Of a stretch of 64,000 nt of DNA, positions 15,876-48,145 are shown piece after piece. Where the stretch lies: NCBI GenBank assembly GCA_017552715.1, contig JAFZOW010000066.1, positions 1-64,000 of the forward strand. The letters run 5' to 3'. The translations under genes and the position numbers were made by a program. The DNA is from Lachnospiraceae bacterium. GTDB taxonomy: Bacteria; Bacillota; Clostridia; Lachnospirales; Lachnospiraceae. Each line of letters starts with the position of its first letter. Position 1 is the first letter of the stretch. The notes below the pieces were generated by a model, which had not been told where the DNA came from, made no database searches, and saw nothing but the letters and a program-made list of their open reading frames with translations.

Positions 15876-15963
15876 GTCAATTTGCAGACAGCCGGTATCC
15901 GGTTTTTTAGTGGAAGCACGGCGTGCTTCCACTAAAACGGATACCGCATGTCTGCAAATTGAC
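15876..15963. repeat. 88-base near-perfect palindrome
   Basis: Bases 15876-15890 and 15949-15963 pair perfectly over 15 bases. Inside, 15891-15920 and 15922-15948 pair almost completely, ending in a 15-base perfect arm around G15921. The stem totals about 40 base pairs. It is far longer than a terminator and resembles a miniature inverted-repeat element. It ends two bases before the structured element at 15966. Confidence 0.85.
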
Positions 15964-15965
15964 AT

Positions 15966-16054
15966 GCGATTTGCCCATGCAAAATCGGCTTCGCCGATGG
16001 GCAAATCGCCGTAAAACTCGGGCAGCGCTCGCTTTCGCTCGCTAACCCTCGCGG
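15966..16054 (+). repeat. Dispersed structured element, copy A
   Basis: Outer stem GCGATTTGCCC (15966-15976) pairs with GGGCAAATCGC (15999-16009); a 7-base one-sided bulge ATGCAAA (15977-15983) follows; inner stem ATCGGC/GCCGAT closes loop TTC. The tail CGCCGTAAAACTCGGGCA and then CGCTAACCCTCGCGG follows to 16054. The copy at 48062-48145 has the same layout, bulge and tail but different stem sequence that still pairs. Confidence 0.8.
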
Positions 16055-16218
16055 TACTCCGATAGGCTACGTTGTTCAGATAGTAATTGCAGTAAGCCGG
16101 TGTCTGGAGGCTGTTTTTCTCAAAGTATTTCTGACTATAACGCCCAAGTGCTTCTACTCCAACAGGCTACGTTGTTCAGATAGTAATTGCAGACAGCCGG
16201 TGTCCGGAGGCTGTTTTT
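16055..16218 (+). repeat. Two ~64-bp direct repeats spaced exactly 100 bp
   Basis: Bases 16055-16118 and 16155-16218 are near-identical (for example AGGCTACGTTGTTCAGATAG in both) and start exactly 100 bases apart. Each ends in a GCCGG-TGTC-rich hairpin followed by five to seven Ts on the + strand. Between them lies a spacer with a TATAAC sequence at 16135-16140. The few differences cluster at the unit start and in the hairpin. Confidence 0.8.
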
Positions 16219-46661: not shown

Positions 46662-48038
46662 TCATTCCGCCCGGATAGCTGCCAGAGGAGAAAGCTTCAT
46701 GGCCCGTACCGAAGGGAAGAAGCCCGCGATCATGGCGATCAGGATCGCAAACAGGATGGAAAGAGTCGCCAGCCACAGGGGTATGCGGGAAATATCCACT
46801 CCCGCCCCGAAGCCAAGCACATCGGCACCGCCGGCCAGTTTGTTCAGCACCATGGAGATCAGGTAGCTGAAGAGCACCCCGACCGTCCCTCCGATCAGGC
46901 CGATATAGCCCGCCTCGATGAGGAAGAGGGCCTGTATATCCCGGATCCGGCAGCCGATGACCTTCATGATGCCGATCTCCTTGGTCCGCTCATAGATGCT
47001 CATCATCATGGTGTTGGTGATGCCTATGGCCGCCACCAGCAGGGAGATACCGCCGATGCCTCCCAGAACCGCCTGGATGATGTTCATCATCTGCATGTCG
47101 GATTCGATCCATTCGGCACTGGAATAGGTCTGATAGCCCATATCATTGATGATCTGCTGCACTTCCTCCACGCTTTCCATGGTATCGCAGGAAACATTGA
47201 CCGTACTGTAGAAGAATTCCTTATAGGGCTTGCCGTTCTTGCGGGTGGGCTGCCCCGGTATGGTCCTGCCCTTGAACTCCCGCGTCAGCGTTGTTTTCAG
47301 TGCTTCCAGATTACAATATACATAATAGGAATGCTGGCTCCAGTCCTCCGGACCGCCGGCCATCACACCCGCCGTCTTCACCAGATGCTTCTTGGGCATG
47401 GGAATGACCTGACCGTTTTCGTCCGTACTGCCGCCGTTGTAGTAATTATCCATATCAAAAATGGCAAAAATGGAATCCTTGGTGAGGTCGATGGGAGGCA
47501 GTTCCCCGGTCTCCCAATAGCTTTCGTCGTTCCCGCCCCTTTCCTTGGAAAAGTTGACCAGTACCGTGTTTCCGTACAGAAAGCTCAGCTCCGTTTCCGA
47601 AGTGGGGAGCTCCCCGCTGGCCAGCTCGATCTTCTGGTTCTTAAGATACTCCGGCGTGACTCCTTTGATCTCGCCCCAGCCTATATACCCGTTGCACTTT
47701 AAAAAGGCGGAACAGCTCACCTCGGGATCCACCGATACCACATGATCCAACTGGGAGAGCGCCTCCACCAGGGCATCGTCCAGGTGCAGCTCCTCCTTCT
47801 TTTTATCATCGCCGCCGTCCCCGTCATAGTAACGGTTCTGTTCCGTCACCTCGATATTGGTGAGGCTGGCATAGCTCTGCATCTCATCCAGCAGCGCGGC
47901 TTTCATCCCGATACCCAGGCTGATCATCACCACGATGGAGGTGGTTCCGATCACCACGCCCAGCACGGTCAGTATGGTACGCACTTTCCGCTTAAACAAG
48001 CTGGAGAGGCTCATTTGCAGCAGATCCAGGATCTTCAT
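46662..48038 (-). CDS. MacB/FtsX-type ABC transporter permease
   Basis: The 458 residues have one N-terminal membrane helix (about 18-42; TILTVLGVVIGTTSI), a large extracytoplasmic domain (about 60-325) and three C-terminal helices with the FtsX signature (ERTKEIGIMKVIG, about 365-377). MacB-type systems move substrates mechanically across the envelope rather than through a pore. Its ATPase partner is at 49930-50724 and a surface protein gene lies between. The ATG at 48038 is within the 3' arm of a perfect hairpin; a reading from 48113 would translate repeat DNA and is rejected. Confidence 0.9.
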   Translation of the reverse strand: MKILDLLQMSLSSLFKRKVRTILTVLGVVIGTTSIVVMISLGIGMKAALLDEMQSYASLTNIEVTEQNRYYDGDGGDDKKKEELHLDDALVEALSQLDHVVSVDPEVSCSAFLKCNGYIGWGEIKGVTPEYLKNQKIELASGELPTSETELSFLYGNTVLVNFSKERGGNDESYWETGELPPIDLTKDSIFAIFDMDNYYNGGSTDENGQVIPMPKKHLVKTAGVMAGGPEDWSQHSYYVYCNLEALKTTLTREFKGRTIPGQPTRKNGKPYKEFFYSTVNVSCDTMESVEEVQQIINDMGYQTYSSAEWIESDMQMMNIIQAVLGGIGGISLLVAAIGITNTMMMSIYERTKEIGIMKVIGCRIRDIQALFLIEAGYIGLIGGTVGVLFSYLISMVLNKLAGGADVLGFGAGVDISRIPLWLATLSILFAILIAMIAGFFPSVRAMKLSPLAAIRAE

Positions 48039-48060
48039 CAGGCAGTCACCTGCCTGATGA
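48035..48060 (-). promoter_or_regulatory. Hairpin over permease start codon
   Basis: TCATCAGGCAG (48035-48045) and CTGCCTGATGA (48050-48060) form a perfect 11-bp stem with a 4-base loop. In the mRNA the ATG at 48038 lies inside the 3' arm and the only ribosome-site-like sequence (AGGTGA) is in the 5' arm and loop. The structure should hinder initiation unless upstream ribosomes or a factor open it. Confidence 0.65.
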
Positions 48061-48061
48061 A

Positions 48062-48145
48062 GGCGATCCCGCCATGCATAATCCCGCTGCGCGGGATGGC
48101 GTGATCGCCGCAAAACTCGGGCATCGCTTCGCTAACCCTCGCGGG
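48062..48145 (+). repeat. Dispersed structured element, copy B
   Basis: Outer stem GGCGATCCCGCC (48062-48073) pairs with GGCGTGATCGCC (48098-48109) with one mismatch; one-sided bulge ATGCATA (48074-48080); inner stem ATCCCGC/GCGGGAT with loop TGC (48088-48090). The tail CGCCGCAAAACTCGGGCA then CGCTAACCCTCGCGG follows. The layout equals copy A at 15966-16054 although the stem bases differ. It occupies the gap between the surface-protein and permease genes. Confidence 0.8.

Follow-up and report, generated by a model that had tools for sequence, protein, structure and literature searches.

Bulged hairpins of a Lachnospiraceae genome as probable remnants of an IS66-type MITE family

Two copies of a bulged hairpin and their surroundings

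The window analysed here, a 64,000-nucleotide stretch of a Lachnospiraceae contig, contains two intergenic copies (W1 and W2) of a bulged hairpin, and raises the question of whether this fold is maintained as an RNA or belongs to a mobile DNA element. A preliminary description had reported that both places share a 7-base bulge, ATGCAWA, and a conserved tail, and that the stems still pair although their bases differ between the copies; direct reading of W1 against W2 found the layout at both places and the stem differences to be paired changes. In W1, the hairpin P2 (15966-16009, + strand; read from the sequence, positions checked by script) is GCGATTTGCCC-ATGCAAA-ATCGGC-TTC-GCCGAT-GGGCAAATCGC, with an 11-bp outer stem, the one-sided bulge ATGCAAA, the inner stem ATCGGC/GCCGAT and the loop TTC, and is followed by the conserved tail, P3 (16010-16054, +), reading ACTCGGG ... 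CCCTCGCGG. P2 of W2 (48063-48108, +) is GCGATCCCGCC-ATGCATA-ATCCCGC-TGC-GCGGGAT-GGCGTGATCGC, with one mismatch in the outer stem, the bulge ATGCATA, the inner stem ATCCCGC/GCGGGAT and the loop TGC, and its tail (48109-48144, +) again reads ACTCGGG ... CCCTCGCGG. An additional hairpin, P1, which was absent from the preliminary description, precedes both copies: in W1 it occupies 15876-15963 (+), with 15-bp outer arms GTCAATTTGCAGACA / TGTCTGCAAATTGAC, and in W2 it occupies 48033-48062 (+), reading CTTCATCAGGCAG-TCAC-CTGCCTGATGAAG.

Within the window, a covariance model of the bulged hairpin had matches with E up to 1 at W1 and W2 alone, in both cases also on the other strand; the scores of model R1 (W1, E 2.9e-16; W2, E 3.1e-13) are those of two of its own 13 input sequences. 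When folding energies were compared with 200 shuffles per sequence, for the DNA and for the RNA of each strand, W1 folded clearly better than the shuffles, with z -3.67 for the DNA and, for the two RNA strands, -3.11 and -3.74. The fold of W2 was weaker: z was -2.29 for the DNA (four shuffles equally good) and, for the two RNA strands, -1.78 (nine equally good) and -3.00. On the + strand of W2 the described hairpin is present in the centroid and another structure has the lowest energy; on the - strand the hairpin is in the minimum-energy fold.

W1 lies between a hybrid sensor kinase gene and a small ORF without a family above cut-off, and W2 between the gene for a MacB/FtsX-type permease and one whose product matches CARDB marginally. 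The listed start of the permease ORF is a TTG at 48113, within W2; we infer that translation starts instead at an ATG at 48038, and this likely start codon (- strand, 48036-48038) lies inside the W2 P1 hairpin (48033-48062), the loop of which holds a possible ribosome site, AGGTGA. P1 of W2 could thus influence translation of the permease. The left arm of the W1 P1 hairpin (15876-15963) is similar to repeats flanking W1 at about 16086 and 16186, and a direct repeat of at least 28 identical bases starts at 16065 and again at 16165, running into a terminator-like stem and a T run. Elsewhere in the window, a Clostridiales-1 RNA (RF01699, E 1.8e-28) was found at 65-221 on the - strand.

Copies, ends and target-site duplications

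The preliminary description had taken many copies in related genomes, with significant covariation, as the mark of a new element, and further copies were indeed found, both in relatives of the same genus and across the family. Matches occurred in 5 of the 40 genomes searched, all of one genus: the own genome, G000, and 4 of its 23 same-genus relatives, G009, G012, G017 and G019. G000 gave 16 matches, of which 15 are to the element, counting W1, W2 and some partial copies, and one is to the local flanking repeat, and G009 gave at least 22 (22 scored of 86 candidates), with scores mostly equal. The P2-top pattern retrieved 45 stretches of a GTDB-based collection, which by their accession prefixes represent 11 genomes. 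Their titles all read Lachnospiraceae apart from that of Kineothrix sp. MSJ-39, itself a member of the family. Full-length elements, 273 in total, were present in 34 of 397 family genomes and 33 of 334 genera, with the highest count in G152 (43) and nine in G347, and the reversed-pattern control gave none. The end motif reached at least 20 hits in 14 of 298 family genomes and had few or none in most (reversed control, at most 5 hits in any of the 298), and a class-level scan of 391 genomes, 16 of them Lachnospiraceae, matched two, G069 (Lachnospiraceae) and G569 (another family). The P2 pattern had no match in viral contigs, and distant-mode searches of plasmids with the family A element and of phages with the family B element gave no match. 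No earlier description of the repeat family was found in the searches made, which covered titles, the starts of abstracts and passages of PMC3281130, PMC3189936 and PMC9769881.

A canonical copy consists, in order, of a left terminal repeat folded as P1, the bulged hairpin P2, P3 (CTCGGG ... CCTCGCGG in the subfamily of the window) and a right terminal repeat. Full-length elements measure 132-154 bp where listed, have the ends GTAACTRTTCAG / CTGAAYAGTTAC, with GTWACTRTTCAG repeats at both, and hold no gene. Those with duplications are 134-135 bp long in G000, 145-147 bp in G009 and 136-145 bp in G144; duplications also flank solo palindromes of 27-39 bp, deletion forms of 49-52 bp and forms of 200-254 bp that carry nested inserts. 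Hairpin inserts of about 55 and 90 nt within the loop, tail or bulge of the element (L058, L041 and L060 in G009; L208, L211 and L255 in G144) look like a second, REP-like element, those of G009 being located before TCGC with no visible target duplication. A second interior type, a long AT-rich hairpin with ends GTAACTRTTCAGAGC, has the same element ends and 8-bp duplications (L260, L262, L268, L273, L291 and L295, from several genera and two viral contigs). Several core copies (W1, L091, L094, L010 and L014) have long P1 hairpins of unrelated sequence, those of the own-genome L091 and L094 being recognised by eye and L010 and L014 belonging to G012.

Terminal inverted repeats are thus present in the family, and intact ones are missing in W1 and W2. 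Compared with canonical copies, P1 of W1 stands in place of the left terminal repeat and is unrelated to it in sequence; W1 has no intact terminal repeat and no target duplication was found at it, and by eye neither a right terminal repeat nor a target duplication was seen at W2. A possible decayed right repeat of W1 is CTCCGATAGGCTAC at 16057-16070 (+), which, compared by eye with the canonical TTCTGAATAGTTAC, is equal at 10 of 13 aligned positions, with one gap on each side.

Insertion is recorded most clearly in the flanks of 30 full-length elements selected by a pattern blind to flanking sequence. Their 8-bp flanks are exact repeats in 17 and identical at 7-8 of 8 positions in 24, exact matches at other lengths numbering three at 3 bp, one at 4 bp and none at 5-7 or 9-12 bp; flanks swapped between elements gave no exact match and 0.26% at 7 or more of 8. 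Among rows selected by their flanks, a duplication was present at 24 of the 59 candidate end pairs in one set, exact at 19, and at 13 rows in G144, exact at 10. Three full-length copies of the own genome have a target duplication (two exact, one at 7 of 8). The element is therefore short, without a gene, dispersed in many copies and associated with a duplication of fixed length, 8 bp.

REP/BIME palindromes of RAYT transposases are dispersed intergenic hairpins, and the element resembles them in being a short palindrome dispersed between genes; a palindrome of this type, moved by a Y1 (RAYT/IS200-like) transposase, would agree with the Y1 genes found in 4 of 5 genomes examined. The element differs, however, in its IS66-type ends and in the 8-bp duplications at 24 of 30 sites, which to our knowledge are not expected from Y1 transposition, and its own genome gave no Y1 match. 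Eight Y1 loci of relatives were scanned and had no element, terminal repeat or tail motif beside them, two showing a bare ten-base bulge-like match with no stem and no tail. We consider mobilisation by Y1 transposases very improbable.

An IS66-type element with the same ends

A candidate partner emerged from scans of viral contigs with three patterns of the MITE ends, which returned 52 stretches. One of them, L323, contains a 1,796-bp element (L323:645-2440) with MITE ends on both sides and an exact duplication, CTATGGCA; this insertion sequence agrees with the MITE in its ends and in the length of its duplication. It encodes an IS66 transposase (PF03050, 2.5e-39; NF033517, 254.8 bits against a cut-off of 180) that is split over two frames. 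A 423-aa piece of this transposase had matches in 5 of 28 genomes (G068, G347, G017, G080 and G318), most of the 28 having been picked for their richness in these ends. Close matches (64-65%) were confined to G068 and G347: all 15 short C-terminal matches in G068 adjoin a MITE end, each at a contig break, and the single one in G347 likewise lies next to a MITE end. In both genomes these matches lie within about 15 bases of GTAACTGTTCAG, with one element end only. The matches in the remaining three genomes are more distant, with related ends nearby in G017 (GTTACTATTCAC, L347) and G080 (GTTACTGTTCAC, L341). The other 23 of the 28 genomes, G000, G009 and G144 among them, had no match to the L323 transposase, and a PF03050 search of G000, G009 and G017 found nothing. 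This is a genuine gap in the case for the partner; where no match was found, the insertion sequence may have been lost or may be missing from the draft assemblies.

The IS66 family (PF03050 / NF033517) includes a single-gene, ISBst12-type branch, and IS66 transposase matches were present in 73 of 200 genomes of the family. Ordinary family IS66 elements were considered as the partner and rejected: none of 32 loci was shown to have the MITE ends. Six of the 32 have inverted GTAA ends, with an exact 8-bp duplication in two (L181 and L196) and no 8-bp duplication in L179, L182, L187 and L197; GTAA ends with exact 8-bp duplications were seen in IS66 elements at L181, L196, L218 and L220, and in G144 GTAAACGTCAAACCA ends have exact duplications in two copies. 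A single end-like match, with one mismatch and lacking a partner, occurs at five of the 32 loci (L187, L191, L195, L205 and L207), that of L187 lying outside the insertion sequence. No autonomous pair of exact ends 1-3 kb apart occurred among the matches listed for G009, G040-G043 and G144 (in one case 100 of 111), and 36 stretches taken from G144 around ends lacking a near partner contained none either.

The element thus resembles IS66 elements in its 8-bp target duplications and in ends starting with GTAA, and the MITE ends are found on both sides of the L323 element and beside the transposase tails of G068 and G347. It differs in having no transposase gene, and the other IS66 loci of the family (the six of 32 and two more) end in GTAAGCGTC-, GTAACCGTC- or GTAAACGTC-like sequences, not in GTAACTRTTCAG. 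Passages of PMC3281130 give ISPpa5a and ISPpa7 with 8-bp repeats. Bacterial MITEs such as MITEPsy1, according to passages of PMC3189936, are also about 100-150 bp long, without a gene, in several copies, with IS-like terminal repeats and a target duplication; MITEPsy1, however, has 4-nt duplications and ends like those of ISPsy2, and unlike it the present element has an interior of several hairpins, the stems of which covary across genera.

Because of the terminal repeats, the 8-bp duplications, the many copies and the IS66-type element with the same ends, we regard the family as a MITE family of the Lachnospiraceae, and W1 and W2 as very probably old, degenerate copies of it. Judged from sequence, an IS66-type insertion sequence is most likely its mobiliser: the transposase of such copies would bind the terminal repeats of the MITE in trans and move the element, leaving an 8-bp duplication.

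Pairing of the stems and the role of the fold

Covariation was assessed in two alignments, A2 (13 sequences, W1 and W2 included) and A3 (9 sequences), split by one extra G after the inner stem, a division chosen after viewing the joint alignment; the Kineothrix locus L162 and one G012-like set were left out of A2. Paired cells made up 89.7% (A2) and 96.0% (A3), against 28.7-48.1% in slid controls. Cells changed on both sides numbered 38 and 40, which none of 500 shuffles equalled (slid controls, 1-8), and the number of pairs changed on both sides was as high in 0 (A2) and 1 (A3) of 500 shuffles. The covariation anticipated by the preliminary description therefore exceeds the controls in both alignments; further pair types were not above the shuffles (354 and 152 of 500 as high in A2 and A3).

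The chemistry of the pairs bears on the possibility that the element is a structured non-coding RNA with a conserved fold, dispersed by chance. Such an RNA would account for the strong covariation and the conserved bulge, for two canonical copies that fold well as RNA (z about -8.2), and for P2-like hairpins without repeats in Kineothrix (L162) and MI.11_2 (L173) and beside tRNA-Arg genes (L152, L156 and L169). If an RNA acted from one strand, G-U pairs should be tolerated on that functional strand. Instead, in 40 distinct P2 hairpins 575 of 606 cells are Watson-Crick, with 3 G-T, 7 A-C and 21 others, the script's threshold (bulge pattern and at least 7 of 9 Watson-Crick outer pairs, so that a few hairpins may be chance) biasing the absolute rates and leaving the ratio of G-T to A-C unaffected. 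In 98 distinct P1 hairpins, where most letters are fixed by the search pattern, we counted 778 Watson-Crick, 2 G-T, 2 A-C and 2 other pairs. The near absence of G-T pairs argues for folding at the DNA level or on both strands, and against a one-strand RNA. Moreover, the canonical copies fold equally unusually as DNA (z -7.4 and -7.8), the target duplications indicate insertion as DNA, and Rfam gave no match at W1 or W2 when the window was searched at gathering cut-offs and, for four canonical copies at E up to 1, only two chance-level matches outside the elements. A non-coding RNA thus appears improbable. Where the preliminary description had left open a structured RNA or a REP/MITE-like palindrome, the mobile element has held up through its copies, repeats, 8-bp duplications and IS66-type relative; the RNA has not, with G-T pairs scarce and Rfam silent, nor has a REP origin, with no Y1 match in the own genome and neither terminal repeat nor tail at the Y1 loci scanned.

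P2 is not needed for movement, because 18 of the 30 full-length elements show no bulged hairpin by either model or script. In a search confined to the 30 elements, the A2-built model recovered P2 from 11 at E up to 1 and from 7 below 0.01; a larger search gave 10 and 5, respectively. The script added L276, giving 12. Elements without P2 have other folded interiors, e.g., P3 motifs in L259, and exact duplications flank such elements and solo palindromes of 37-39 bp. Conversely, P2-type hairpins without terminal repeats were recognised by eye at L152, L156 and L169, each adjoining a tRNA-Arg gene, and at L162 and L173; in the three distinct hairpins scored, the outer stem, of which the 5' arm lies outside the search pattern, pairs at 9 (L152), 10 (L162) and 10 (L173) of 11 positions.

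These hairpins in other genera, together with the unrelated P1 hairpins on cores of the own genome (W1, W2, L091 and L094) and of G012 (L010 and L014), could suggest that the P2-P3 core forms a module of its own, mobile or selected, which swaps P1 and ends, with IS66 ends as one vehicle, and that W1 and W2 arrived without IS66 transposition. We think this rather unlikely: other own-genome copies have an IS66-type P1, three full-length ones have a target duplication, W1 may keep a trace of the right repeat, and decay with local rearrangement could produce the remainder. Similarly, we see a minor chance that P2 is an independently selected DNA fold, its Watson-Crick pairing and fixed 7-base bulge kept across many genera and recognised as a cruciform or single-stranded DNA by a putative protein, with IS66-type ends as one of several vehicles. 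For the IS66-type MITE that we favour, the hairpins would be maintained as folded DNA, cruciform or single-stranded, or through a need to fold on both strands, and the most likely role of P2, tentatively, may be that of an orientation-independent folded spacer that makes intergenic insertion tolerable.

The repeat family is abundant, belongs to a major bacterial family of gut and rumen, and is tied here to a transposase family. It may account for contig breaks and for unusual hairpins between genes in such genomes, and the 273 full-length elements are a natural set for asking why the interior of a transposon keeps a covarying fold.
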